Positions 8,496-31,500 of a stretch of 37,145 nucleotides of DNA are shown here, piece by piece (the first letter of the stretch is position 1; every line of letters begins with the position of its first letter). The translations under genes and the position numbers were made by a program. The notes below the pieces were generated by a model. That model had not been told where the DNA came from, did no database searches, and worked only from the letters and a program-made list of their open reading frames with translations. The stretch comes from an uncultured Winogradskyella sp. (lineage in GTDB: Bacteria; Bacteroidota; Bacteroidia; Flavobacteriales; Flavobacteriaceae), in the NCBI GenBank assembly GCA_913061495.1, contig CAJXVG010000008.1, positions 1 through 37,145 of the forward strand. The letters run 5' to 3'.

Positions 8496-8726
8496 ATGAA
8501 AAACGTTTATTGCTCATTATTTGGCCACGATTATAAAGTGTCAAAAAATGTTACCTATCATGTAAAAGAATTTAAATGCAAACATTGCAAGTCAGAATTG
8601 ACAATGGATGGTAATGGGAAAATGATTCCACTCACACCCAAATTCAAAGAAATTAATTCTATTTTAAGCCGTGTACACAACAAAAGATTGAAGAAAAGTC
8701 AACAGTTTTTTGTAGCAAATTCTTAA
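8496..8726 (+). CDS. Small C-H-C-C putative zinc-binding protein, paralogue 2
   Basis: A 76-residue paralogue of the preceding protein. Cys6, His11, Cys28 and Cys31 keep exactly the same spacing (C-x4-H-x16-C-x2-C). The HVKEFKCKHC and PLTPKFKEINSIL segments match paralogue 1 nearly word for word. It starts MKNVYCSLFGH without the eight extra N-terminal residues of paralogue 1. A separate transcript is possible: TATCTTTA, one base off a -7 box, lies at 8444-8451. The last four bases overlap the end of the convergent thiL gene. Confidence 0.7.
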   Translation: MKNVYCSLFGHDYKVSKNVTYHVKEFKCKHCKSELTMDGNGKMIPLTPKFKEINSILSRVHNKRLKKSQQFFVANS

Positions 8727-9772
8727 GATTCACCGAGTGCATTCCATCCTTTTGCTATAATAGGAATCTTGGTTTCCGCTCTAGTTACGAGGTGCATTCC
8801 TCTGTCTTCCTCAGTCATATAACCGATAACAGTAAGATTTGGATTACCTTTTATTTTTGGGAAATCTTCTTGAGAAATTGTCATTAACAACTCATAATCC
8901 TCACCACCATTTAAGGCTATCGTAGTACTGTCTATATTAAATTCTTCACAAGTAGAAATTACTTGAGGGTCTAACGGAATTTTATTTTCATACACATCAA
9001 CACCAACTTTACTTTGCTTGCACAAATGAATTACTTCTGATGATAATCCATCACTTATGTCTATCATACTCGTTGGTTTTACCTCTAGCTCTTTTAAAAG
9101 TTCCACAATATCCTTTCGAGCTTCAGGTTTTAATTGACGCTCAATGATATACGTGTACATGGATAGATCTGGCTGGCTATTTGGGTTTACTTTAAATACT
9201 TCTTTTTCGCGTTCTAAAATTTGTAATCCCATGTAAGCACCTCCAATATCACCTGTAATCACTAAAAGATCATTTGGTTTTGCGCCAGAACGGAGCACTT
9301 CTTCCCCTTTTTTAACTTCACCTATAGCGGTAACCGAAATTATTAATCCGGACGTAGAAGACGTGGTGTCACCACCAACAACATCCACATTGTAAATTTC
9401 GGCGGCAGTTGCAATTCCTGCGTATAATTCTTCTAAAGCCTCTAAGGGAAAACGATTAGATACTGCTATAGAAACAGTAACCTGTGTTGCTGTAGCATTC
9501 ATGGCATAAACATCTGAAAGGTTAACAATAATTGCCTTGTAGCCCAAATGTTTTAAAGGCACATAACTTAAATCAAAATGTACACCTTCAACTAACAGAT
9601 CTGTAGTAACTACAATTTGCTTTTTGTCATAATTCAAAACAGCAGCGTCATCACCAATACTGGTTACGGTAGATTTCTGTTTTACTTTAAATTGCTCAGT
9701 TAAATGCTCAATCAGTTTAAACTCGCCTAACTCGCTCAATGGAGTTCGTTTTGGATTCTTATCTTCTATCAT
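8723..9772 (-). CDS. thiL: Thiamine-monophosphate kinase
   Basis: A 349-residue kinase that makes thiamine pyrophosphate from thiamine monophosphate and ATP, the last step of vitamin B1 synthesis. It belongs to the PurM-like ATPase superfamily. Visible motifs are SIGDDAAV (38-45), TTDLLVEGVHF (56-66), NLSDVYAMNA (84-93), GGDTT (133-137) and a later ISDGLSSE, all for Mg-nucleotide and substrate binding. No other thiamine gene is nearby. The -7 box TATTTTTG is only four bases before the ATG, so the transcript may be leaderless. Confidence 0.93.
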   Translation of the reverse strand: MIEDKNPKRTPLSELGEFKLIEHLTEQFKVKQKSTVTSIGDDAAVLNYDKKQIVVTTDLLVEGVHFDLSYVPLKHLGYKAIIVNLSDVYAMNATATQVTVSIAVSNRFPLEALEELYAGIATAAEIYNVDVVGGDTTSSTSGLIISVTAIGEVKKGEEVLRSGAKPNDLLVITGDIGGAYMGLQILEREKEVFKVNPNSQPDLSMYTYIIERQLKPEARKDIVELLKELEVKPTSMIDISDGLSSEVIHLCKQSKVGVDVYENKIPLDPQVISTCEEFNIDSTTIALNGGEDYELLMTISQEDFPKIKGNPNLTVIGYMTEEDRGMHLVTRAETKIPIIAKGWNALGES

Positions 9773-9776
9773 ATTG

Positions 9777-9784
9777 CAAAAATA
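9777..9784 (-). promoter_or_regulatory. -7 promoter box of thiL
   Basis: The minus strand reads TATTTTTG (TAnnTTTG) with four bases before the ATG of thiL. A leaderless or near-leaderless transcript follows if it is used. No clear -33 box is present. Confidence 0.4.
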
Positions 9785-9880
9785 TTACGCTTTTACTAAA
9801 TATAAGTACAATAGATGCGTTAATTATTCAAGAGTTTTACGACATACATAATATTTGAAGTAAATTGCTAAAAAAAGTCT

Positions 9881-11347
9881 ATGAATTATAATGCCCTTAA
9901 AAATGTTTACCTAATTTGTTGTGCTTCATTTATGCTGTTATTAACCGCATGTTCTGATGATGATACAAATGGCAATAATGATGCTGACAACGACGGTATA
10001 ATAAATACTGTTGATAATTGTTCAGAATTATCAAATCCAGATCAGTTGGATACAGACAATGATGGGATTGGGAATATTTGTGATGAAGATGATGATGGTG
10101 ATGGTGTTTCTGATTTAGAGGATAATTGCCCACTCTTACCAAATCCAAATCAAGAGGACGAAGACAGTGACGGCATTGGAGACATATGTGACGATAGTGC
10201 TATTCAGGCACTATTTCCATGTATTGGTGGTATGGCAGGTCCATACCCTTGTAACGGTATTGATATTATGTCTATAATGAATGCTGAAACTCTAGGCGGA
10301 AGTTCTGCCACAGAAGGAAGTGATATTTGGGGCTGGACAGACCCAAGCAACGGAAACGAATATGCTATTGTTGCAATGACCAACGCAACAGCTTTTGTTG
10401 ATATAACAGATGCTATAAATCCCATTTTTTTAGGAAGATTAAACACTAATGCAGGCACAAACTTTTGGCGCGATGTAAAAGTATATAATGACTTTGCTTT
10501 TATCGTTGCTGATGGTGCTGGTGATCACGGTATGCAAGTTTTTGACCTCACTCGATTGCGAAATGTAACAAATGCACCAGAAACATTTAATGCAGATGCC
10601 GTTTATACAGGAGTTGGCAGTTGCCATAATATTGTTATAAATCAAAGTGAAGCTGTAGCTTACTTGGTAGGTTGTAGCTCTACCAATGGTGGAGGTCCAA
10701 TTTTTGTGGATATTTCAAACCCAATGAATCCAACATTTTTAGGAGATTATACAGATGGAGGATATTCACATGATGCACAAGTTGTAACATATAATGGACC
10801 TGACACCGATTATACAGGAAAAGAAATTTACGTAGGAAGCAATGGGAATACTGACAAAGTCATAATACTTGATGTGACTGATAAAAACAACATCATTCCA
10901 ATAAGCGACTTCACCTATCCGCAAACCGCTTATGCCCATCAAGGTTGGTTTACAGAGGACCAAACCTATTTTATTTTAGGTGATGAAGTTGATGAACAGA
11001 CCTTTGGTTTTAACTCAAAAACTTTGGTGTTTGATTTTACCGATTTAGACAATCCAACGTTATCTTCCACATATTTTGGTCCTTCAGCTGCTATAGATCA
11101 TAATGGTTATGTTAAAGGCAATGAATATTATCTTGCCAATTACAGAGCTGGTATGCGAATTTTAGATATTACCAATGTTTCGGCATCTTCAAATTCCATA
11201 ACGGAAACTCATTTTATAGACACATTTCCTGAAAGCAACAGTGCCAATTTTAATGGTGTCTGGAGTGTTTACCCATATTTTGAAAGTGGGAATATTGTTA
11301 TTAGTGATATTGAAAAAGGATTATTTGTCGTTAGAAAGAGTAATTAA
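9881..11347 (+). CDS. Surface lipoprotein: calcium-type repeats plus choice-of-anchor B (LVIVD-like) propeller
   Basis: A 488-residue lipoprotein and first gene of a four-gene operon. The signal peptide ends in LLTAC (Cys24), followed by SDDD, which fits the Bacteroidota lipoprotein export signal for the cell surface. Residues about 33-105 are thrombospondin type-3-like repeats (DADNDGI, DTDNDGIGNICD, DDGDGVSD, DSDGIGDICD) that should bind calcium. The rest is a beta-propeller of repeated xVDIxDxxNPxxLG units (FVDITDAINPIFLG, FVDISNPMNPTFLGDY), the type annotated as choice-of-anchor B. Its role is unknown; such propellers usually bind proteins or ligands. The stop is two bases from the next start, so translation is probably linked. 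Confidence 0.85.
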   Translation: MNYNALKNVYLICCASFMLLLTACSDDDTNGNNDADNDGIINTVDNCSELSNPDQLDTDNDGIGNICDEDDDGDGVSDLEDNCPLLPNPNQEDEDSDGIGDICDDSAIQALFPCIGGMAGPYPCNGIDIMSIMNAETLGGSSATEGSDIWGWTDPSNGNEYAIVAMTNATAFVDITDAINPIFLGRLNTNAGTNFWRDVKVYNDFAFIVADGAGDHGMQVFDLTRLRNVTNAPETFNADAVYTGVGSCHNIVINQSEAVAYLVGCSSTNGGGPIFVDISNPMNPTFLGDYTDGGYSHDAQVVTYNGPDTDYTGKEIYVGSNGNTDKVIILDVTDKNNIIPISDFTYPQTAYAHQGWFTEDQTYFILGDEVDEQTFGFNSKTLVFDFTDLDNPTLSSTYFGPSAAIDHNGYVKGNEYYLANYRAGMRILDITNVSASSNSITETHFIDTFPESNSANFNGVWSVYPYFESGNIVISDIEKGLFVVRKSN

Positions 11348-11349
11348 AA

Positions 11350-12687
11350 ATGTGGTACAGAAAAACATATCAATTGGTATTAATCTGTTTTACAATCCTT
11401 TTAGCTTGTAATTCTGATGACGCTATTCCAAGCAATCAAAATAACATTCAAAAAACATTAATCGAAACCTTTGGAGGCTCAAAAAATGACAGTGGGCAAT
11501 CCATTGTATCCACTATTGATGGTGGTTATGCCATTCTTGGCTATACCCAAAGTATGGATGGAAATATCACAAACAAACAAGACGAAAGTTATGATTATTG
11601 GCTCTTAAAGTTTACTGCTGAAGATGAGCTCCAATGGCAAAAAACATATGGAGGCTCTGGTGACGATAGAGGAAGCGCAATTATTCAAACCCAAGATGGT
11701 GGTTATGCTATTTTGGGTACTAGTAATAGCACTAATGGAGATGTAACAGGCAACTCTGGTATGCAAGATTATTGGTTGGCAAAATTAGATGCTGCAGGAA
11801 ACTTACTTTGGCAAAAGTCTTTTGGTTATCCAGGTGCAGATACAGGCATTTCTGTGATTCAAACCAATGATCAAGGTTATTTAATTTCTGGAGTTTTAGA
11901 TGTTACCGCATCTAATGGTGAGGGCAACACAGAACGTTCAACAAACCGACATGCAGGTGGTGATTATTGGGTTTTAAAACTTAATGCATTGGGTATAATT
12001 GAATGGAGCAAATATTTTGGCGGTAATTTTACCGATACTCCAGAAGGTATTGTTCAAACAGCCGATAATGGTTTCATTATTGCAGGTGGTTCAGATAGTA
12101 TGGATACAGATATTTCTGGTAATATTGGCTCTTATGATTTTTGGGTCATTAGAATTTCTTCTACAGGAAATCTAATTTGGGAAAAGTCCTTTGGTGGTGA
12201 TGAAATAGACGAAGCCAGAGCAATTGTAGCCTCTGGAGATGGCAACTTTATTATTGCTGGCGACACCAGAAGTTCCGACAATAACGTTTCAAGCAACAAC
12301 GGAGCAGCAGATTTGTGGCTCATCAAAATATCACCAAATGGTGACTTACTTTGGGAACAAACAATTGGTGGTACAAATTTTGATGTCTCAAGAGCGCTCG
12401 TAAGAACAAACGACAACGGTTTTTTATTAGCTGGTAGCTCCCGAAGCAACGACATTGATGTTTCCCAAAATAAAGGACAAAACGATGCTTGGGCAATAAA
12501 AGTAGATAATGAAGGTCATTTGCAATGGGAAACAACATTTGGTGGCTCTAATATTGATTTTGCTTATGGAATTGCAGAATTAAACGACTTATCAATTAGA
12601 GTTGTTGGAGATTCTAGCAGCAACGATGGTGACATTAATGAAAACCGAGGTTTTACGGATTTACTTTTAGTTAAACTGAATGAATAA
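11350..12687 (+). CDS. Surface lipoprotein with seven propeller repeats
   Basis: A 445-residue lipoprotein with lipobox LLAC (Cys20) followed by NSDD. Almost the whole mature protein is seven consecutive repeats of about 52-66 residues, each running roughly xxFGGxxxDxxxxIVQTxDGGFxIAGxSxSxDxDVxxNxGxxDxWxxKLDxxGxLxWEK. Seven such units suggest a closed seven-bladed beta-propeller. Blade starts are marked by TFGG, TYGG, SFGY, YFGG, SFGG, TIGG and TFGG; blade 3 has an insertion. There are no catalytic residues that I can name. It lies in the operon between the LVIVD-type propeller gene and the MbnP gene, with a three-base gap to the latter, so it probably works with that pair. Confidence 0.82.
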   Translation: MWYRKTYQLVLICFTILLACNSDDAIPSNQNNIQKTLIETFGGSKNDSGQSIVSTIDGGYAILGYTQSMDGNITNKQDESYDYWLLKFTAEDELQWQKTYGGSGDDRGSAIIQTQDGGYAILGTSNSTNGDVTGNSGMQDYWLAKLDAAGNLLWQKSFGYPGADTGISVIQTNDQGYLISGVLDVTASNGEGNTERSTNRHAGGDYWVLKLNALGIIEWSKYFGGNFTDTPEGIVQTADNGFIIAGGSDSMDTDISGNIGSYDFWVIRISSTGNLIWEKSFGGDEIDEARAIVASGDGNFIIAGDTRSSDNNVSSNNGAADLWLIKISPNGDLLWEQTIGGTNFDVSRALVRTNDNGFLLAGSSRSNDIDVSQNKGQNDAWAIKVDNEGHLQWETTFGGSNIDFAYGIAELNDLSIRVVGDSSSNDGDINENRGFTDLLLVKLNE

Positions 12688-12690
12688 AAA

Positions 12691-13464
12691 ATGAGATCGA
12701 TTTACCTTTTTTTAATATTAGCCTTGTATAGCTTCACTTCATGTAGTGATGACAATGGCGATATGCAAAGTGAAAGTGCTTCAACAACTCTAAAATTCAC
12801 ACATAATTGGAACGGCGAACTTGTAACAAGCTCTGATTTTAATACCGTACAGTACACCAATCAAAATGGTGAAATGTTAAGTATTGAACGTTTACGTTAT
12901 CTAATTTCAGACATAACTTTCACCAACGCTGATAGTGAAGATATTATTTTAGATGTTTACAATGTAGTGGATGTCACCAATGATAATGGTTTAAGTTATA
13001 CACCAACTACCGAGATTCCAGTTGGTACTTATTCAAATGTGTCATTTACATTTGGTTTTGATAACGAGGATAATTCAGAAAATTATCTTGATTTGAATTC
13101 TGCATCATTCAACGTACCAGATATGCTTGGTGGTGGTTATCACTATATGCAATTTGACGGAAAATATTTAGATTCAAATTCAAATGAACAAGGATTTAAT
13201 TATCACACTATCCGAGCAGTGGACAATCCTGGCATGAACCCTACTTTTCCACAAGACACTTTTTTCACTGTAAATCTTGGACAAGTAGTCATTGACAACA
13301 ATACAGTTATTGAAGTTGAAGCTAATTTAGCCGAGTGGTTTAAAAGTCCTAATCTTTGGGATTTAAATATTTACAATACCGTTTTAATGCCAAATTCTTC
13401 AGCACAAATAATGATGTATGAAAATGGACAAACTGTTTTTAGTTTAAGCGAAACCGCTGAATAG
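12691..13464 (+). CDS. mbnP: MbnP-like copper-binding lipoprotein
   Basis: A 257-residue lipoprotein (Cys18, then SDDN) whose sequence fits the MbnP family. The visible family features are LKFTHNWNG near the N-terminus, LRYLISDITF, FTFGFDNE, GGGYHYMQFDGKY, and a C-terminal EANLAEWF...LWDLN. In characterised MbnP proteins a tryptophan is oxidised to kynurenine by the partner MbnH and then helps bind copper; candidate tryptophans here are Trp40, Trp216 and Trp223, and I cannot say which is used. Histidines 38, 151 and 172 could add ligands. It sits ten bases before the mbnH-like gene, the usual pairing. The S-D-D start suggests surface display rather than a periplasmic location. Confidence 0.8.
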   Translation: MRSIYLFLILALYSFTSCSDDNGDMQSESASTTLKFTHNWNGELVTSSDFNTVQYTNQNGEMLSIERLRYLISDITFTNADSEDIILDVYNVVDVTNDNGLSYTPTTEIPVGTYSNVSFTFGFDNEDNSENYLDLNSASFNVPDMLGGGYHYMQFDGKYLDSNSNEQGFNYHTIRAVDNPGMNPTFPQDTFFTVNLGQVVIDNNTVIEVEANLAEWFKSPNLWDLNIYNTVLMPNSSAQIMMYENGQTVFSLSETAE

Positions 13465-13474
13465 CTCAAATCAC

Positions 13475-14530
13475 ATGCAACTGAAAATTATAACTTTAGG
13501 TATTTTAACTTGTCTTTTTTTGAATTGCTCAAGTGATGACAATACAGGCTATGAGCCTATTTCTGCACCCTTAGAAATACCTCAGTTGTTTTCAAACAAT
13601 ATCCTCTCTCCAGTCATTCCTACTGATAACCCACAAACAATGGAAGGAGTTGCATTAGGAAAAAAGCTCTTTTTTGATAAAATTCTCTCGGAAAATGGTA
13701 CTCAAGCATGCGCAAGCTGCCATAATCCTCAAAATGCTTTTTCAGACAATACACCAACAAGTAATGGAATTGATGGTGTTTTTGGCATTCGTAATGCTAT
13801 GCCACTTTTCAATTTGGCGTGGAATTACGGAGAGCGTTTTACTTGGGACGGCAAAGAGCTAAGCTTAGAGCGCCAAGCGTTAGAACCCATTCAAAACCCG
13901 AATGAACTTCATAGCGATTGGGCTAATGTAGTTGACCGATTACAATCCCACCCTGAATATCCTGAATTGTTTCGTTTAGCTTTTAAAACTTCAACCATTA
14001 CAAAAGAATTAACAACAAAAGCTATCGCTCAATTTGAACGTACCTTAATTTCTGCCAATTCAAAATTTGATAGATATTCAATGGGTGAAGCCTCTCTAAC
14101 TCCACAAGAACTTAATGGTTTAAACCTCTTTTTAAGAGAAGATAAAGGAGATTGTTTTCATTGTCACGGCAATCCAAATAATCCATTGTGGACAGATAAT
14201 ATTTTTCATAATAATGGATTAGATTCAACTTTCGAAGATTTAGGTTTGGGTGCCGTTACAGGTGACCCAACTGACAATGGAAAGTTTAAAACTCCTTCAT
14301 TGCGCAACTTAGCCTTTACAGCTCCATACATGCATGACGGTAGGTTTGACACATTAGATGAAGTGATTAACCATTACAGCGAAGGGCTTCAAAACTCTCC
14401 AACTATAGACCCACTAATGAAAAAAATCGACGAAGGTGGAGTACAATTATCCGAACAAGAAAAAGCGGATTTAAAAGCTTTTCTTCTTACACTTAGTGAC
14501 CCATCGTTTATTAATAACCAAGATTTTTAA
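13475..14530 (+). CDS. mbnH: MbnH-like di-heme enzyme (cytochrome c peroxidase/MauG family), lipoprotein
   Basis: A 351-residue di-heme protein with two c-type heme motifs: CASCH at 79-83 and CFHCH at 227-231. The family segments LGKKLFFDKILSENGTQAC, FERTL and FKTPSLRNLAFTAPYMHDGRF are present; Met286 of YMHDG or a nearby tyrosine may be a heme ligand. The N-terminus is a lipoprotein signal (FLNC, Cys18, then SSDDN), which is unlike soluble peroxidases. Bacterial cytochrome c peroxidase would be the default name. The gene directly after mbnP makes MbnH, the enzyme that oxidises a tryptophan of MbnP, the better reading. It would act outside the inner membrane and need cytochrome c maturation genes from elsewhere. 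Confidence 0.85.
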   Translation: MQLKIITLGILTCLFLNCSSDDNTGYEPISAPLEIPQLFSNNILSPVIPTDNPQTMEGVALGKKLFFDKILSENGTQACASCHNPQNAFSDNTPTSNGIDGVFGIRNAMPLFNLAWNYGERFTWDGKELSLERQALEPIQNPNELHSDWANVVDRLQSHPEYPELFRLAFKTSTITKELTTKAIAQFERTLISANSKFDRYSMGEASLTPQELNGLNLFLREDKGDCFHCHGNPNNPLWTDNIFHNNGLDSTFEDLGLGAVTGDPTDNGKFKTPSLRNLAFTAPYMHDGRFDTLDEVINHYSEGLQNSPTIDPLMKKIDEGGVQLSEQEKADLKAFLLTLSDPSFINNQDF

Positions 14531-14680
14531 AACTTATTAATTTAAAAACTATTAGCGCTATTTCTGTAGTTTTTTGGCTACAAAACTTAGTTTCATTATG
14601 CATTTCATCGAAAAAATAAGTACTTCAGCTTATCTTTTTCACGGTTTACTTAGATTGCTTTCCCCAAAATGCCCTAAATA

Positions 14681-14911
14681 ATGAAACCTACTAACAACAA
14701 AGCTCTCTCATGTTCTGTTTTTGGCCACAATTATGTGAAGTCAAAAACCAATAGTGATGAAACAATAGAGTTACAATGCTCCCAATGTCATATCATTACA
14801 ACAACTGACAAGTATGGTAATTTTATTGAATCGACTATTTCTAATAAAAATATTCAATCAGCTTTAAGAAAATTGTTTCATCTTAATTATCAGATTTCAA
14901 AGCCTGCTTAA
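14681..14911 (+). CDS. Small C-H-C-C putative zinc-binding protein, paralogue 3
   Basis: A 76-residue divergent paralogue of the pair at 8152-8726. Cys11, His16, Cys33 and Cys36 retain the identical spacing C-x4-H-x16-C-x2-C, with SCSVFGHNYVKSK and LQCSQCHI. The C-terminal half has drifted (NKNIQSALRKLFHLNY in place of FKEINSILSRVHNKR) but the helical pattern is the same. Function unknown. The gene stands alone between the mbnH-like gene and the suf operon. Confidence 0.65.
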   Translation: MKPTNNKALSCSVFGHNYVKSKTNSDETIELQCSQCHIITTTDKYGNFIESTISNKNIQSALRKLFHLNYQISKPA

Positions 14912-15016
14912 GCAATTCAAACGTTCAAAAATCAAGTCTTCCCAGCCATAATAAAAACCTATAAAACCATATCCTAATATAATGTTAGTAAGTATGGTTA
15001 AACCCTAGTTAAATCG

Positions 15017-15024
15017 TATATTTG
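15017..15024 (+). promoter_or_regulatory. -7 promoter box of the suf operon
   Basis: TATATTTG is an exact TAnnTTTG box 32 bases before the sufA ATG, giving a leader of about 25 bases. The -33 region has only a weak match (ATGG at 14994-14997, at 19-base spacing). I see no convincing IscR- or Fur-like operator. Confidence 0.5.
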
Positions 15025-15056
15025 CATTCAATTTAGAAGTAATCTATTTCAATGCT

Positions 15057-15386
15057 ATGATTAAAGTTTCTGAACATGCCAAAAGAAAGGTTATGGAACT
15101 GATGACCGAAGATGGCTTTAACCCAAGCTCAGACTATGTGAGGGTTGGAGTAAAAAGCGGTGGATGCTCTGGTCTTTCCTACGATTTAAAATTTGACAAA
15201 GCCCAAGTTGAAGGCGACAAAATGTTTGAGGACAATGGTGTAAAAATCATTGTGGACAAAAAAAGCTTTTTGTACCTTATAGGAACTACACTTGAATATT
15301 CTGGAGGCTTAAATGGATCTGGCTTTGTATTCAACAACCCAAATGCTAATAGAACTTGTGGCTGTGGTGAATCTTTTTCACTATAA
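15057..15386 (+). CDS. sufA: Iron-sulfur cluster assembly A-type carrier
   Basis: A 109-residue A-type carrier that accepts or passes on Fe-S clusters. The three conserved cysteines are present: Cys37 (SGGCSGLSY), Cys101 and Cys103 (TCGCGESF). Length is usual for SufA, IscA or ErpA. Its position as first gene of the suf operon favours SufA. The ATG at 15057 begins MIKVSEHAK, where the family begins; another ATG five bases earlier is out of frame. Confidence 0.92.
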
Positions 15387-15436
15387 AACCATCCCAACTT
15401 CCTTTAGGGAAGAAGTTCAATTATACAAAAAATATT

Positions 15437-16885
15437 ATGTCAAAATATACTGAAGACGATCTTAGAGAAGAGTTAAAGACCAAAGAATACGAATATGGTT
15501 TTTATACAGATATTGAATCTGATACATTTCCCATTGGTCTTAATGAAGAAATAGTTATTGCGATATCCAAAAAAAAGGAAGAACCAGATTGGATGACAGC
15601 TTGGAGGCTAGAAGCGTTTAAGGCTTGGAAAGAAATGATTGAGCCAGAGTGGGCAAATGTCCATTACAAAAAACCAGATTTTCAGGCTATTTCTTATTAT
15701 TCCGCACCAAACAGCAAGCCAAAATATGATAGCATCGACGAGGTTGACCCTGAGCTTTTGGCAACGTTTGAAAAATTAGGAATTTCATTAGACGAGCAAA
15801 AGAAACTTGCAGGAGTAGCAATGGACGTCGTTGTAGATTCAGTTTCGGTCGCTACAACATTTAAGAAAACTCTGGCCGAAAAAGGCATTATTTTTATGAG
15901 TATTTCTGAAGCAATAAAAGAACACCCAGAACTTGTTAAAAAATATATAGGGACTGTGGTTCCTAAAACAGACAATTTTTATGCAGCATTAAATTCTGCT
16001 GTCTTTAGTGATGGATCGTTTTGTTACATTCCAAAAGGAGTGCGTTGTCCTATGGAGCTCTCAACCTATTTTAGAATCAACCAAGCAGGCACAGGTCAGT
16101 TTGAAAGAACACTAGTAATCGCTGATGAAGGCAGTTACGTTTCTTATTTGGAAGGTTGTACAGCACCTAGCCGTGACGAAAATCAATTACACGCTGCAGT
16201 TGTAGAGTTGATTGCATTAGATGATGCCGAAATAAAATATTCAACGGTACAAAACTGGTACCCAGGAAATGCTGAAGGAAAAGGAGGAGTTTATAATTTT
16301 GTAACCAAACGAGGCCTTTGCGAGAAGAATTCAAAAATATCTTGGACTCAAGTCGAAACAGGATCTGCTGTTACTTGGAAATACCCATCTTGTATTCTCA
16401 AAGGAGATAACTCGGTTGGTGAATTTTATTCAATTGCTGTGACCAACAATTATCAGCAAGCTGATACTGGTACGAAGATGATTCACTTAGGCAAAAACAC
16501 AAAATCTACCATAATTTCAAAAGGTATTTCAGCTGGTAAATCGCAAAACTCTTATAGAGGTTTGGTGCAAATCAGCTCTAGGGCAGATAATGCACGTAAT
16601 TTTTCACAATGTGATAGCTTATTGATGGGAAATGAATGTGGTGCTCACACATTTCCATACATTGAAGCAAAGAACAAAACGGCTCAAATAGAGCATGAAG
16701 CCACAACTAGTAAAATTGGTGAAGACCAGATTTTCTATTGTAACCAACGTGGTATTGATACAGAAAAAGCGATTGCCTTAATTGTTAATGGGTTTAGTAA
16801 AGAAGTATTAAATAAATTACCAATGGAATTTGCTGTTGAGGCACAAAAATTATTGGAAATCAGTTTAGAAGGTTCAGTCGGTTAA
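15437..16885 (+). CDS. sufB: Fe-S cluster assembly scaffold SufB
   Basis: A 482-residue scaffold subunit of the SufBC2D complex, on which the nascent Fe-S cluster is built. The typical SufB core is visible: [39 protein letters not shown], the cysteine-bearing [18 protein letters not shown], and [12 protein letters not shown] near the C-terminus. Length matches the family. It lies 50 bases after sufA and is separated from sufC by a lipoprotein gene, which is not the standard order. Confidence 0.95.
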
Positions 16886-16890
16886 CTGTG

Positions 16891-16973
16891 ATTCCTGGGT
16901 AGACAGGAATTTCATATTTAATTTCTAAATTTTAGAATTGAAGTTTAATTAAATAAATTCCGTTTTCACGGAA
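16891..16973. repeat. Two small hairpins between sufB and the lipoprotein gene
   Basis: ATTCCTG (16891-16897) pairs with CAGGAAT (16904-16910) around a six-base loop. TTCCGT (16958-16963) pairs with ACGGAA (16968-16973) around a four-base loop, ending one base before the ATG. The first resembles the short ATTCCTG/CAGGAAT intergenic palindromes that I recall as common in Flavobacteriaceae. Neither is followed by a clean T-run, so they are not obvious terminators. The second could hinder ribosome access. Confidence 0.4.
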
Positions 16974-16974
16974 A

Positions 16975-17388
16975 ATGAATATGAAAAAAATAAGTTTTAT
17001 AATCATTTTATGTCTCGCTCTTACTGCATGTAAAAACGACAAAAAGCAAGAGGTCAATTTAGAAGAAAATCGCGCCAAATCCTATAATCAAAATGATGGA
17101 TTAATAACTGTGAAAGGTGACTTTGTCTATTATGCAGATGCTGCTGTTTTACAGACACCAAGAGAAATTTATGGAGTAGTAATAGATGAAAAGATGCATT
17201 TATTAAACGACCAAGTAAAGTCATTTAAAAAAGAAGCCACAGATATGGTTCCAGTGACTGTAAGGGTAAAAAAAATTGAAAAGCCCAAGGACGAAGAGGG
17301 TTGGCAATATAGGGTAGAAATTAAGGAAATACTAAAGGTTGAAGCACCTAAAGAAAATCAAGAAGACGTTATAAAATTATCAAATTAA
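16975..17388 (+). CDS. Predicted lipoprotein inside the suf operon, unknown function
   Basis: A 137-residue lipoprotein with LTAC (Cys19) and a charged linker KNDKKQE, followed by one compact domain (about 42-125) rich in beta-strand (GLITVKGDFVYYADAAVLQT, TREIYGVV-like, VPVTVRVKKIEK, YRVEIKEILKVE). I do not recognise the family. The sequence after the cysteine lacks the S-D-D of the surface lipoproteins, so it may face the periplasm. A second ATG at 16981 is an equally good start. It lies 4 bases before sufC, so it is part of the operon although Fe-S assembly is cytoplasmic; the link may be expression only. Confidence 0.7.
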   Translation: MNMKKISFIIILCLALTACKNDKKQEVNLEENRAKSYNQNDGLITVKGDFVYYADAAVLQTPREIYGVVIDEKMHLLNDQVKSFKKEATDMVPVTVRVKKIEKPKDEEGWQYRVEIKEILKVEAPKENQEDVIKLSN

Positions 17389-17392
17389 GATT

Positions 17393-18145
17393 ATGTTAAA
17401 GATAAACAACTTGCATGCAAGTGTAGAAGATAAAAGCATTTTAAAAGGTATAAATCTAGAGGTTAAACCAGGTGAAGTACATGCCATTATGGGACCAAAC
17501 GGTTCTGGTAAAAGTACTTTAGCATCTGTTATAGCAGGAAAAGAAGAGTACGAAGTTGATAAAGGTGAAATACTTTTTGAAGATGAGGATATAGATGAGC
17601 TTGGAGCTGAAGAGCGTGCGCACAAGGGCATATTTTTATCATTTCAGTATCCTATAGAAATCCCGGGAGTTAGTGTCACTAACTTTATGAAAACAGCGAT
17701 TAACGAAACTAGAAAAGCTAAAGGCATGGAAGATATGCCTGCAAATGAAATGCTAAAAATGATTCGTGAAAAATCAGAGCTTTTAGATATTGACCGTAAG
17801 TTCTTATCTCGTTCCTTAAATCAAGGGTTTTCTGGTGGTGAGAAAAAACGGAATGAGATTTTTCAAATGGCAATGTTAGAGCCAAAGTTAGCGATACTAG
17901 ATGAAACCGATTCTGGTTTAGATATCGATGCACTTCGTATTGTTGCCAATGGTGTTAATAAACTAAAGAGCAAAGATAATGCTGTTATAGTTATTACACA
18001 TTACCAGCGTTTGCTAGACCATATAGTCCCAGATTTTGTACACGTATTACACGATGGTAAAATAGTAAAATCAGGAGGCAAGGAATTAGCACACGAATTA
18101 GAAGCTAAGGGTTACGATTGGATTAAAGAAGGCGTTGGAGCATAG
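17393..18145 (+). CDS. sufC: Fe-S assembly ATPase SufC
   Basis: A 250-residue ABC-type ATPase that powers the SufBCD scaffold and works in the cytosol, not in transport. Walker A is GPNGSGKST (34-42), the signature is SGGEKKRNE (147-155), Walker B is LAILDETDSGLD (about 167-178), and the switch histidine is in VITHYQRLLDH. ETDSGLDIDAL is the SufC form of the Walker B/D-loop. Length is standard. Confidence 0.96.
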   Translation: MLKINNLHASVEDKSILKGINLEVKPGEVHAIMGPNGSGKSTLASVIAGKEEYEVDKGEILFEDEDIDELGAEERAHKGIFLSFQYPIEIPGVSVTNFMKTAINETRKAKGMEDMPANEMLKMIREKSELLDIDRKFLSRSLNQGFSGGEKKRNEIFQMAMLEPKLAILDETDSGLDIDALRIVANGVNKLKSKDNAVIVITHYQRLLDHIVPDFVHVLHDGKIVKSGGKELAHELEAKGYDWIKEGVGA

Positions 18146-18299
18146 CGCGTAGCGCTGGTTTACAGTCACAGTAGGCAGTTGCTCACTCAAAACTGATGAC
18201 TCAAAACGATTATTACATCTTCAAAATATAAATAGTATCCAGATTTTTTCGCAGTTAGAATAAGTGAAAACTGCGACTGAAAACTGAAAACTGATAAAA
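18146..18299. repeat. Repeat-like intergenic segment between sufC and sufD
   Basis: This 154-base gap breaks an otherwise tight operon. It has GCGC-GTA-GCGC at the sufC stop, scattered CAGT/ACTG units (CAGTCACAGT, GGCAGTTGC), a hairpin TCGCAGTT (18249-18256) with AACTGCGA (18269-18276), and three tandem ACTGAAA-type units at 18276-18296 just before the sufD ATG. The CAGT/ACTG-rich composition is like intergenic repeats I recall from many flavobacterial genomes. No coding frame is seen. Confidence 0.5.
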
Positions 18300-19613
18300 A
18301 TGGAATTAAAAGAAAAATTAGTATCATCATTCTTGGCATTTGAAGACAATATTGATGTCCACTCGCCAGTGCATGATATAAGAACTGAAGCTATAAAAAC
18401 ATTTGAAACGGAAGGTTTCCCAACTAAAAAACAGGAAGCTTGGAAATACACGTCTTTAAATTCAATTTTAAAGCATGATTATAGTGTTTTCCCAAAGAAC
18501 GAAAATGCTTTAGAATTTAAAGATGTAAAGAAATATTTCATTCATGATATTGATGCTTATAAAATCATCTTTGTGGATGGTAAATATTCGTCATACTTAT
18601 CGCAAACAACGCATGATGGTATTGATGTATGCTTAATGTCTTCTGCATTATCTAAACCAAAATACCGCCCAATTATTGAAAACTATTTCAATAAAATAGC
18701 ACCAAAAAATAGTCTATCTTCATTAAATACGGCATTTTCAGCTGAAGGAGCTTATATTCATATTCCTAAAAATAAATTGGTAGATAAGCCAATTCAAATT
18801 ATACATTTTTCAACAGGAAGTGAAGCTGCACTAATGTTACAACCGCGTAATTTGGTTGTGGTAGATGAAAATTCACATGTTCAAATTATAGAGCGTCATC
18901 AAAGTTTAACTGATAATCCTGTGCTTACAAACAGTGTTACTGAAATTTTTGCTGATAAACGTGCCATTGTAGATTATTACAAAATTCAGAATGACAAGCA
19001 AACGGCTTCTTTAATTGATAACACTTTTGTGAATCAAAAACAGGAAAGTTTAGCAAAAGTGCACACGTTTTCTTTTGGTGGAAAATTGATAAGAAACAAC
19101 CTTGAGTTTTACCAAAATGGAGAACGTATCGATTCTACAATGAAAGGAATTACAATCATTGGAGATAAGCAACACGTAGATCATAATACTTTAGTACATC
19201 ATATTGAACCTAATTGCGAAAGTCATCAAGATTACAAAGGGATTTTCAGTGATAATTCTACTGGTGTTTTTAACGGTAAAGTTGTTGTGGAAAAAGAGGC
19301 GCAGAAAACAAATGCTTTTCAGGCCAATAATAATATTTTAGTTGATGATAAAGCTACAATAAACACTAAACCTCAACTTGAGATTTTCGCAGATGATGTA
19401 AAATGTTCTCACGGTTGTACCATTGGGCAATTAGATGAAAGCGCTATGTTCTATTTACGCTCTCGTGGTATTCCTAAGAAAGAAGCTAGAGCTTTGCTAA
19501 TGTTTGCTTTTAGCAATAATGTTTTAGATTCTGTAACTATACCAGAAATTAAACAACGTATCACTAAAATTATCGCTAATAAATTAGGCGTTAATATTGG
19601 GTTTGAATTATAG
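18300..19613 (+). CDS. sufD: Fe-S cluster assembly protein SufD
   Basis: A 437-residue partner of SufB in the SufBC2D scaffold. Family features are QEAWKYTSL near the N-terminus, the beta-helix core (AEGAYIHIPKN, PIQIIHFS, SHVQIIERH), DHNTLVHHIEPNCESHQDYKGIF, and the C-terminal CSHGCTIGQLDESAMFYLRSRGIP. Length is standard. The last base of its stop codon is the first base of a possible GTG start for sufS. Confidence 0.95.
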   Translation: MELKEKLVSSFLAFEDNIDVHSPVHDIRTEAIKTFETEGFPTKKQEAWKYTSLNSILKHDYSVFPKNENALEFKDVKKYFIHDIDAYKIIFVDGKYSSYLSQTTHDGIDVCLMSSALSKPKYRPIIENYFNKIAPKNSLSSLNTAFSAEGAYIHIPKNKLVDKPIQIIHFSTGSEAALMLQPRNLVVVDENSHVQIIERHQSLTDNPVLTNSVTEIFADKRAIVDYYKIQNDKQTASLIDNTFVNQKQESLAKVHTFSFGGKLIRNNLEFYQNGERIDSTMKGITIIGDKQHVDHNTLVHHIEPNCESHQDYKGIFSDNSTGVFNGKVVVEKEAQKTNAFQANNNILVDDKATINTKPQLEIFADDVKCSHGCTIGQLDESAMFYLRSRGIPKKEARALLMFAFSNNVLDSVTIPEIKQRITKIIANKLGVNIGFEL

Positions 19614-19636
19614 TGAGTGTAGCCGCAAAACATAGC

Positions 19637-20851
19637 ATGTTAGATATTGAATCTATTAGAAAAGATTTCCCTATCCTAAACCGCAAGGTTAACGGAAAAC
19701 CATTAATATATTTTGATAATGCTGCAACATCTCAGACACCTCAACAGGTCATCGATGTTATTGTAGATTATTATTCAAACTACAACGCTAATATCCACAG
19801 AGGTGTTCATAGTCTGAGTCAGGAGGCAACTGATGCTTATGAGGAATCACGACTCAAAATTCAGAAGCATTTTAATGCTAAACATTCTCATGAAATCATT
19901 TTTACTGCTGGGACAACCCACGGTATTAATTTAGTGGCAAACGGATTCTCTTCTGTTTTGAAAAAAGGTGATGAAGTTTTGGTTTCGGCTTTAGAGCATC
20001 ATAGCAATATTGTTCCTTGGCAAATGTTATGCGAACGAACTGGTGCAAAACTGAAAGTAATTCCCATGAACCAAAATGGAGAATTAATACTTTCCGAATT
20101 TGATTCATTACTAAACGAAAATACCAAGCTTGTTTTTGTTAATCATATTTCAAATGCATTAGGAACTATTAATCCTATTGCAGAAATTATTGAAAAAGCG
20201 CATAAAATCGGTGCAGCTGTTTTAGTAGATGGTGCCCAATCTTGTCCACACTTAAAATCTGATGTTCAAGAGTTAGGGGTTGATTTTTACGTTTGTTCTG
20301 CTCATAAAATGTGTGGCCCAACTGGTGTTGGTATACTCTATGGAAAGGAAGAATGGCTCAATAAACTTCCTCCTTATCAAGGTGGTGGTGAAATGATTGC
20401 TGAAGTTTCTTTCGAAAAAACAACTTACGCTGGTTTACCTCATAAATTTGAAGCTGGCACACCAAATATCTGCGGAGGTATTGCTTTTGGAGCCGCTATA
20501 GATTATATGAACTCTATTGGTTTTGATACAATTGCCAACTATGAAAACGAGCTTTTAAAATACGGAACCAAAGAACTTCTAAAAATCGAAGGCTTAAAAA
20601 TTTACGGTACTGCTAAGCACAAAACTTCTGTTATTTCTTTCAACGTTAGTTCTATACATCCATACGATATAGGCACAATTCTAGATAAAATGGGTATTGC
20701 TGTGCGTACAGGTCATCACTGTGCACAACCTATTATGGATTTTTACAAAATTCCTGGCACGATAAGAGCCTCATTTATGTTCTATAACGCTAAAGAAGAA
20801 ATTGATACTTTCATTGCTGCACTTAAAAAAGCTATTATGATGTTATCTTAA
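19637..20851 (+). CDS. sufS: Cysteine desulfurase SufS
   Basis: A 404-residue PLP enzyme of the NifS/CsdA class II type that takes sulfur from cysteine for cluster assembly. The PLP lysine is Lys224 in CSAHKMCGPTG; the persulfide cysteine is Cys362 in RTGHHCAQP; the substrate and PLP contacts include DNAATSQTP and ALEHHSNIVPW. I chose the ATG at 19637 (MLDIESIRKDFP), where the family normally begins. A GTG at 19613 overlaps the sufD stop by one base and would add eight residues, so that start is possible. Confidence 0.93.
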   Translation: MLDIESIRKDFPILNRKVNGKPLIYFDNAATSQTPQQVIDVIVDYYSNYNANIHRGVHSLSQEATDAYEESRLKIQKHFNAKHSHEIIFTAGTTHGINLVANGFSSVLKKGDEVLVSALEHHSNIVPWQMLCERTGAKLKVIPMNQNGELILSEFDSLLNENTKLVFVNHISNALGTINPIAEIIEKAHKIGAAVLVDGAQSCPHLKSDVQELGVDFYVCSAHKMCGPTGVGILYGKEEWLNKLPPYQGGGEMIAEVSFEKTTYAGLPHKFEAGTPNICGGIAFGAAIDYMNSIGFDTIANYENELLKYGTKELLKIEGLKIYGTAKHKTSVISFNVSSIHPYDIGTILDKMGIAVRTGHHCAQPIMDFYKIPGTIRASFMFYNAKEEIDTFIAALKKAIMMLS

Positions 20852-28579: not shown

Positions 28580-31500
28580 ATGAAAAAAATTACTCTCCTT
28601 TTAATCATGCTAGGTTTTCTCCTAACGGCGAATGCTCAGTATGTTTTTGACCCAATAGTTGGTCCAACAAATGTTGCAGAAGGTTCTCCTGTTACAATCA
28701 ACCTGAATGATGCTGCAAATACTGAAGGTGTTCCAGTCTCTTCAACTGGATCTTATGATTCCTTCTCAATTACTGCAGATTGGGTTGCTGGTGGAAACAA
28801 TCCTTATTCTGTTGAAGCAGATCTCACAGTAACTACAAGTGGCGGTTCCGTATTAATAGATCCTCCTACCACTAGTGGAAATTTAGGAGCAGACGCAGTG
28901 ATTACTTTTGTAGGCGATCTTCCTGCGGTATATGACCCGACCACAGATGGCTATTTCGACATAGTCCTTAATCAAAGTTGGGGTGGTTCAGATGCCAACT
29001 GGTCAAATATAGAAGTGACTTTATTTGAAAGTCCAACATGTATTGATCCTACCGGAATAAGTGCTTCAACTATAACATCGTCATCTGTTAATTTAGATTG
29101 GATGGCTGGAGATTCTGAAACTGTATGGAATTTAGAGTATGGTAGCGGAGCTGATTTCACTCCAGGAAATGGTGAAGCAGAAGAAACAGCTGTTGTAAAT
29201 GGCACTCCCAGTACTTTGCTAACAGGGCTTGCGCCAGCAACAACATACTTTGTTTATTATCAAGCGGATTGCGGTACTGATGATGGAACAAGTTTGTGGG
29301 TGGGACCCCTTATTTTTGATACAGAATGTGTAACCTTTACCGCACCATTTACCGAAGATTTTGAAAATGCAGGTGAAATACCATTATGTTGGTCAATGGA
29401 TGGAGGTGATGATTGGTTTTTTGATGACGATGCTGCAGGTTCACATGTAGGAAACAACGGAGTAGTAACAGGAAATACGTTATCAAACGGATTTTTTGCA
29501 TGGAGTGACGCTTCTGGAAACGAAGGTGTTCGTACCTTAACAAGTCCTCTTGTAGATGTTTCTGGTTTAGCTGTTCCTTCTTTATCTTTTTATGAGATTA
29601 GTGATAGAGAAGACAGTGCAAATAGTACTTTAGTAGTTGAAGTGTTTGATGGAGCTGCTTGGAATAACATGGCAACATTCAATACAAACACTAGTGGCTG
29701 GGAGCTTAAAGTTATTGATATCAGTACATTAACTATAACTGGTGATGTTCAGGCTCGTTTTATATTTTCTGAAACTGAAACAGGAGATTTTGATGATGAC
29801 ATCGCCATTGATGATGTTACTTTCGATGAAGCGCCTAGCTGTTTTGCACCAGCTGCACTTATGGCCAACGCTATTACATCTAATAGCGCAGAGTTAAGTT
29901 GGTCACAAGATGGCATGGTATCACTATGGAATATAGAAATTGTCCCATCTGGCGATCCTCAAACCGAAACACCAACTGAAAGTGACATTTCTAATCCATA
30001 TACAGCCACAGGTTTAGATCCTATAGCAAGCTATGATTACTATGTACAAGCCAACTGTGGTGGTGAGCTTAGTAACTGGACTGGTCCATTTACATTTATG
30101 ACGCTTTGTGACGTATTCATACCAGATTATATTGAGAACTTTGCAGACGTAACATTTGCAGATCCACCAGAATGTTGGGAAGAAGCCGATAGTGGTGATG
30201 TTACTACTGGCCCAATGGATTTAGGAGCTAGTTCATGGACTGCAGATGAGTTCTTAAATGTTGGTGCTGATGATGGTGCATACAAAATAAATATGTATGG
30301 TACCGCTAACTTAAATGACTGGATTATTTCGCCACAATTTGATTTAACGGGAGGCCCTTTTCAGGTAGAGTTTGATTTTGCAATAACGGAGTGGAACAGT
30401 GATGATTCTACCGAACCTTTAGATTCTGATGACACTGTTCAATTGTTAATGACTCCAGACAATGGTACAACATGGATTGAATTATTATTGTACAATAGCA
30501 CATCTAATGTACCTATCCCAGGCATACATCCAGTTGTAGATCTCACAGCGTATAGTGGGCAAACAGTACAATTTGCTATTTTTGCCTCTGAGGGAACTGC
30601 GGCGGCACCAACCGGAACAGATGTAGATGTTTTTGTTGACAATTTTAGAGTTCGAAATATCCCAACCTGTCCTGAGCCGTCAGATTTATCTGCAACAAAT
30701 TTATCTTTATCATCTACAGAATTAAGCTGGGTAGAGAGTGGAGGTTCAACTTCTTGGAACATTCAATATGGTGAAGCAGAATTTACTTTAGGCACAGGGA
30801 CTGTTGAAACTAATGTTACAGATAATCCATTTGTATTAACTGACTTAATGCCAGATACTAGCTATGAATTTTACGTGCAAGCTATTTGTGGACCAGGCGA
30901 TGAAAGTTCTTATGCTGGCCCGTTTGAATTTTTTACAGGTTATTGTGAGTCTATGCCAGCGAGTAATGATGGTGATGGTGTATTGAATACTACTATTGGT
31001 ATTACCGATTTTCCAAGTCCAGGTGACGTTGTTTATGAAAACCAAACCTCACCTGTGATTAATGTATTTCAAGGTCTTGAAACTGATTTTGAAATCATAT
31101 TTGGGCACATATTTACTCATGACACTAATATTTGGATAGATTTTAACGATGATTTGGTATTTGAAGCTTCTGAAATTGTATATCAGGGAGAATCATCTGG
31201 AGGTAGTGATCCACACACATTGGCAGATGCATTTTTAATACCTGTTACTGCACCACTAGGTGAGCATAGAATGAGAATAGGCACAGCAGATTCTGGTCAA
31301 GCTAATCCAGATCCATGTTATGATGGTTTTTTTGGTGTTACATTAGATTTTACGGTAAATATCCAAGAACTAACATGTACACTTCCTGAAGCAACGTTCT
31401 CAATAAATGAAGATTGCGATAATGATCAATTCTTTATTGATGTAGAAGTTACTGATTTAGGTGATGCTACTTCATTGGAAATATCAAATACCGTAGATGC

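Follow-up and report, generated by a model that had tools for sequence, protein, structure and literature searches.

A flavobacterial operon of four putative surface lipoproteins pairs an MbnH/MauG-like di-haem enzyme with an MbnP-fold protein that lacks the WxW tryptophan

Introduction

What does an MbnH-like enzyme oxidise when its known target is missing? Work on MbnH and MbnP treats the former as an enzyme acting on the latter, its substrate, in copper binding assisted by kynurenine. We analyzed a four-gene operon from an uncultured Winogradskyella sp. (Flavobacteriaceae; assembly GCA_913061495.1, contig CAJXVG010000008.1, positions 1 to 37,145; this whole stretch of 37,145 nucleotides is called the window), in which the substrate residue is gone and the enzyme has been kept across many flavobacteria. 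The fixed operon allows the question to be put directly. Oxidation of another residue would add to the protein-derived modifications, and oxidation of nothing would give the pair a second role.

Results

Four tightly packed lipoprotein genes, an MbnP/MbnH-like pair and two propellers, were proposed in the initial annotation, and profile, fold, and lipobox evidence bears this out.

9881..11347, + strand: gene 1, lipoprotein with TSP_3 calcium-type repeats followed by a TIGR04312 (choice-of-anchor B, LVIVD) beta-propeller (profile, model, and fold searches)
11350..12687, + strand: gene 2, lipoprotein, second (repeat) beta-propeller, kin to CylK repeats (repeat alignment)
12691..13464, + strand: gene 3, lipoprotein with the MbnP fold (PF20243), WxW site lost (profile, model, and alignment)
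13475..14530, + strand: gene 4, lipoprotein, MbnH/MauG-like di-haem enzyme (profile and alignment)

At the level of sequence and model, the comparisons below establish the gene families, their order, the export-type signals, the MbnP fold, the loss of the WxW Trp, and an enzyme that bears its haem motifs. A fusion or paralogue artefact was ruled out, each gene being single-copy in the source genome at the thresholds used; a DNA search of the genome gave three short extra matches.

Homologues were drawn from a family sample of 120 genomes. Type-A MbnPs (E below 1e-49) occur in 35 of these genomes, window included, and type-B MbnPs (E 1e-5 to 1e-11) at 23 loci in 22 genomes, with three genomes carrying both types. 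The set of named loci was obtained with the type-A alignment and consists of the best 80 of 472; it therefore holds near relatives, and it shares members with the family sample. The class-level comparison covers 20 regions, mostly the best-scoring, out of 100 genomes with a match.

Gene 3 reaches the Pfam gathering score for PF20243 (MbnP), and its model has the MbnP fold. In the WxW motif (TIGR04052), it is the first Trp that becomes kynurenine. In an alignment of 77 MbnPs, this Trp is present in 50, always together with a Gly two residues past a conserved His (H172, found in 77/77); the remaining 27, including the window protein, carry Val in place of the Trp and Ile or Val in place of the Gly, and all 80 named loci (80/80) have Val/Ile at these positions. 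The alignment thus shows that loss of the WxW Trp in gene 3 is linked with a Gly-to-Ile change. The Met that aligns with F140 is missing as well. The only Trp residues of gene 3 are at positions 40, 216, and 223, with none between 40 and 216. TIGR04052 (MbnP_like_WxW) gave no match to gene 3 at E up to 0.001; three type-B proteins match this model at 48–57 bits, under its cut-off of 140.

13108..13116, + strand: gene 3 F140-N141-V142; V142 is opposite the first Trp, and F140 opposite the Met, of M-x-W-x-W in type-B MbnP
13204..13212, + strand: gene 3 H172-T173-I174; the conserved His, and Ile where others have Gly
13336..13359, + strand: gene 3 W216 to W223; conserved Trp still present, candidate new targets

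Because the target Trp is absent, the earlier proposal of copper binding through an MbnH-made kynurenine was set aside in the form in which it was stated. The 77-sequence alignment, which contains intermediates and is used throughout, sets M-x-W on F140-x-V142; an alternative two-profile alignment sets W-x-W on the same residues with a four-residue insert and likewise leaves no Trp in the window protein. A Trp-to-Phe change at residue 140 had been considered as the loss of the target and was dropped after the 77-sequence alignment placed V142 opposite the first Trp. Residue 140 is Phe in 47 and Trp in 33 of the 80 named loci. Locus L069 was omitted from the type-B alignment (19/20 rows kept), and the type-B MbnPs of L104, L106, and L108 were not reached by BLAST. 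Searched against PDB sequences, neither the window MbnP nor the type-A profile found an MbnP; the type-B profile found 7l6g at E 0.003.

W40, W216, and W223, the three Trp residues named in the initial annotation, are possible alternative oxidation targets. W216 is present in all 27 type-A rows that lack W142 and lost in three of the eight that have it. A metal may be bound by gene 3 in some other manner, through its three His residues (38, 151, and 172).

The enzymes of the MauG/MbnH kind work by peroxide-derived oxidising power, and plain peroxidases have Met where the MauG branch has Tyr. Gene 4 belongs to the CCP_MauG family (197 bits). It scores 264.7 bits against TIGR04039 (MbnH), under the curated cut-off of 362.85, and 203 bits against TIGR03791 (MauG), under the cut-off of 443.85. 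Alignment to MbnH 6e1c gives gene 4 the features of the MbnH/MauG branch: two CxxCH motifs, a Tyr at the sixth-ligand place, and a Trp of the inter-haem type. Of 115 type-A enzymes (sets of 35 and 80, which overlap), 114–115 have both CxxCH motifs, the Trp of a WDG motif, two further His residues, and a Tyr opposite that of VIDIYSEG, the single gap being an incomplete row. A passage of PMC6405878 lists among MauG traits a Trp between the haems and a conserved Tyr at the six-coordinate haem. MXAN_0977 is named in the literature as a di-haem protein.

13709..13723, + strand: gene 4 first CxxCH (CASCH, residues 79-83), assigned by motif
14153..14167, + strand: gene 4 second CxxCH (CFHCH, residues 227-231), assigned by motif
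14375..14377, + strand: gene 4 Y301, opposite the VIDIYSEG Tyr of MbnH 6e1c; may be an axial haem ligand as in MauG

The gene 4 enzyme therefore looks intact in sequence, and an intact enzyme whose partner has no target Trp should have another job. MbnH-like enzymes from three genomes whose MbnP keeps W142 (L063, L065, and L067) form the sister group to the window's own group (support 99/92), a position which implies that loss of the target Trp brought no visible change in the enzyme. Relatives with and without W142, having closely related enzymes, thus form a natural comparison.

The eight type-A MbnPs with W142 form one clade (100/98), which also appears in trees built from the N-terminal, middle, C-terminal, and motif-free parts of MbnP. 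This clade is rejected by the MbnH and gene 2 data (approximately unbiased (AU) test, p 0.0012 and 0.00015). Conversely, a group supported by MbnH, chosen after the MbnH tree was seen, is rejected by the MbnP data (p 2.8e-6), with the motif region omitted (p 0.005), and by the N part (p 0.019). Since the mbnP trees conflict with those of MbnH and gene 2, the simplest reading suggests that mbnP alone moved between genomes.

The expectation that the four-gene order would be kept in other Flavobacteriaceae was checked and holds: gene 1, gene 2, MbnP, and MbnH follow one another in 35/35 type-A loci and 78/80 named loci, the other two ending at contig ends, which rules out a chance order. Of the 23 type-B loci, four show the equivalent order after the propellers of the type-A loci, and 19 have no propellers. 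Gene 2 propellers occur in 58/120 genomes and are followed by MbnP/MbnH in 39 of these but not in the other 19; the two propellers thus form an older or more widespread unit than the MbnP/MbnH pair. The propellers had been put forward as partners of MbnP/MbnH. Their constant order with the type-A pair agrees with this idea, and an obligate partnership is excluded by the 19 of 58 genomes without the pair at the locus and by the type-B loci without propellers.

The MbnH tree splits types A and B deeply, and the four type-B pairs of the propeller slot fall inside B. In the gene 2 tree, type A and these four loci stand together, apart from propeller-only genomes (support 97, quick tree). Together, these placements suggest that MbnP/MbnH arrived in, or was replaced within, one slot at least twice.

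A lipobox Cys followed by residues of the S-D-D type stands at the start of all four operon products. S[DE][DE] follows the lipobox in 4/4 operon proteins (one counted by eye) versus 2/45 other lipobox candidates in a 497-kb sample of the source genome, which upholds the surface-export pattern first read from these genes; outward facing is a prediction. Among proteins with a recognised lipobox at the family sample's type-A loci, an acidic pair after the Cys is present in 32/35 MbnPs, 25/34 gene 2 products, and 22/34 MbnHs, versus 22/99 other lipobox open reading frames (ORFs) of the same regions. In 3/35 type-A loci, the gene 1 homologue adjoining gene 2 has a sorting tail of the type IX secretion system (T9SS) in place of the lipoprotein signal, an independent, indirect support for an outside location. 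Such a location is likely for the four lipoproteins on the strength of these signals. For B. fragilis and F. johnsoniae, Lauber et al. 2016 derived SDDDD and SDDFE, respectively, both functional in Capnocytophaga according to the relevant passage (PMC5080379). The S-D-D directly after the operon's Cys resembles these lipoprotein export signals (LES) of Bacteroidota surface lipoproteins (same passage), with location here predicted.

Gene 1 scores 514.6 bits against TIGR04312, above the cut-off of 100. Its propeller has an invariant ring, W150, W196, H249, H297, H353, H407, and W461, one residue per blade at an equivalent inner position, in all 75 gene 1 homologues from the family sample (whether or not MbnP/MbnH is present; rows under 300 bits left out).

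10625..11101, + strand: gene 1 H249, H297, H353, and H407 (codons 10625, 10769, 10937, and 11099), each in 75/75 and at the equivalent place on four successive blades; putative metal binding

Four His residues on neighbouring propeller blades form the centres of carotenoid oxygenases and of a copper methanethiol oxidase, and the four-His ring of gene 1 is probably a metal centre as well, as predicted from these positions. The top Foldseek match of the gene 1 model (E 2.3e-13) is a metal-dependent propeller, the Sphingobium haloalkylphosphorus hydrolase 5hrm, with 335 residues aligned at 16% identity. The propeller domain alone gave no match to PDB sequences, and a Pfam scan of 52 gene 1 members found no known metal-propeller family among the 12 listed. 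No Trp column of the propellers was found to co-vary with the presence of MbnP/MbnH. In gene 2, R307 and a few other residues (299-320) are fixed where the pair stands behind the propellers and differ where it does not; this region is a possible contact patch, or may reflect kinship alone.

Several observations concern the surroundings of the operon. Among the window ORFs scanned, no copper genes were recognised next to the operon, no methanobactin genes were seen, and no methylamine dehydrogenase gene was recognised. In nearly all loci inspected, even those without MbnP/MbnH, the two propeller genes are flanked by thiL on one side and by suf genes, of Fe-S assembly, on the other (window 8723-20851). 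A 76-residue ORF with CxxC-like pairs (14681-14911, +) separates the operon from an IscA/SufA-type gene, and a small lipoprotein gene (16975-17388, +) lies between sufB and sufC; neither has an NCBIfam match. Members of the latter's cluster occur in 34/35 type-A loci versus 2/20 propeller-only loci. Farther along, positions 28580-34225 (+) hold an ORF of 1881 residues. One relative (L050, 2894-11000) has five gene 1 homologues in tandem ahead of gene 2, of which the first ends in a T9SS-like C-terminus, and one family of the class has tandem copies of MbnP or MbnH (L215, L216 with two MbnP, L218, and L220 with two MbnH). At loci outside the suf site (L073, L216, L221, L223, and others), W142-keeping MbnP/MbnH often adjoin CDLC-type proteins and small proteins with CxNKxxPxLxCxGxCH; of four such neighbours scanned, one gave a weak Pfam match.

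Discussion

We favor the reading, at a probability of roughly 45%, that the operon serves a group of surface outer-membrane lipoproteins in which gene 4 oxidises a different site from the former kynurenine position. The four lipoproteins would be displayed on the cell surface as one group, with gene 4 directing peroxide-derived oxidising power at W216 of gene 3 as the first candidate, then W223, then a propeller residue. The MbnP-like protein would have given up its copper-kynurenine site, a metal perhaps being held otherwise by H38, H151, and H172. Gene 1 would contribute a propeller with its own four-His ring, and the two propellers would be either the platform that carries an exchangeable MbnP/MbnH module or its client. 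A bolder form is on the doubtful side: a MauG-type enzyme re-aimed after the Trp loss would make another modification, on W216/W223 or a propeller residue, in a surface complex whose four-His propeller is a new kind of metal centre.

Several results weigh against these proposals. W216 is also present in 22/22 class-level MbnPs from outside the family that keep W142 and, being invariant there, need not be a new target. Type-A rows were assigned to the V142 or the W142 group according to this very motif, ahead of the counts. The gene 1 ring is just as invariant in genomes without MbnP/MbnH and is thus not tied to MbnH, and the acidic pair after the Cys is weaker in gene 1 (16/46 in type-A loci of the family sample). 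Downstream suf genes (58/59 loci) and upstream thiL (57/59) are present with or without MbnP/MbnH; with neighbours so nearly constant, the order in part reflects a stable chromosomal site. Vertical descent at this site without any joint function would also account for the 19 propeller pairs that have no MbnP/MbnH. It does not explain why two separate MbnP/MbnH lineages took one slot and one order with short gaps, the propellers staying as the pair changes, and we regard it as unlikely. Diversifying pressure from a phage, predator, or ligand on an exchangeable surface module, with mbnP swapped as its neighbours stay, would fit both the W142 clade that MbnH and gene 2 reject and the slot common to two types of pair. 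However, the C-terminal part of MbnP alone fails to reject the MbnH-supported group (p 0.099), a group named only once that tree had been seen, and exchange leaves the reason for swapping unexplained. This account is rather unlikely and is compatible with the one that we favor.

Two further accounts concern the enzyme itself. A surface peroxidase or electron-transfer protein that modifies nothing, with the MbnP-like protein as a structural partner, agrees with CCP_MauG membership and with the loss of the target Trp, which fits a lost modification. The MbnH-aligned Tyr and conserved WDG Trp favor the MauG branch over a plain peroxidase, and the pairing with MbnP in 35/35 also argues against this account, leaving it a low probability. 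An ordinary surface copper protein, in which MbnH makes kynurenine and MbnP binds Cu(I), would suit the MbnP fold, the intact enzyme, the constant H172, and the surface precedents MopE/SACCP and CorA. It appears quite improbable in view of the missing WxW Trp and aligned Met, the TIGR04052 model that gene 3 does not match and three type-B proteins match only below cut-off, and the lack of recognised copper genes beside the operon.

Comparison with Known Systems

The spread of MbnP/MbnH (TIGR04052/TIGR04039) from methanobactin operons to other genomes was already known (PMC3621798, in part). The window pair differs from these in lacking the WxW Trp, in scoring below the curated NCBI models or not matching them, and in consisting of lipoproteins encoded with two propellers. 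MauG shares with gene 4 the CCP_MauG family and the Tyr and inter-haem-type Trp positions; gene 4 differs in falling below the TIGR03791 cut-off and in having no recognised methylamine dehydrogenase gene among the ORFs scanned.

The view that no surface version had been described does not stand, since MopE/SACCP of Methylococcus capsulatus is on record. As in that system and in CorA/CorB of Methylomicrobium album, a partner protein is accompanied by a co-transcribed di-haem enzyme; the cell surface of Methylococcus carries MopE and SACCP, and that of Methylomicrobium the copper protein CorA (passages of PMC3912023). The kynurenine of MopE and CorA lies near copper with two His residues (PMC3912023), CorB is mainly periplasmic, and the passages on these systems mention no propellers. 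MopE and CorA sequences are reportedly without marked similarity to MbnP (PMC3621798, in the part concerned), and neither is among the matches listed in the gene 3 fold comparison, no direct comparison having been made. No description of this four-gene operon was found in the literature searched, as judged by titles and abstract openings, which is weak evidence of absence. A surface MbnP/MbnH-like pair is in itself not new; what is new, as far as the literature search shows, is an enzyme kept without its target and its fixed link with two propellers.

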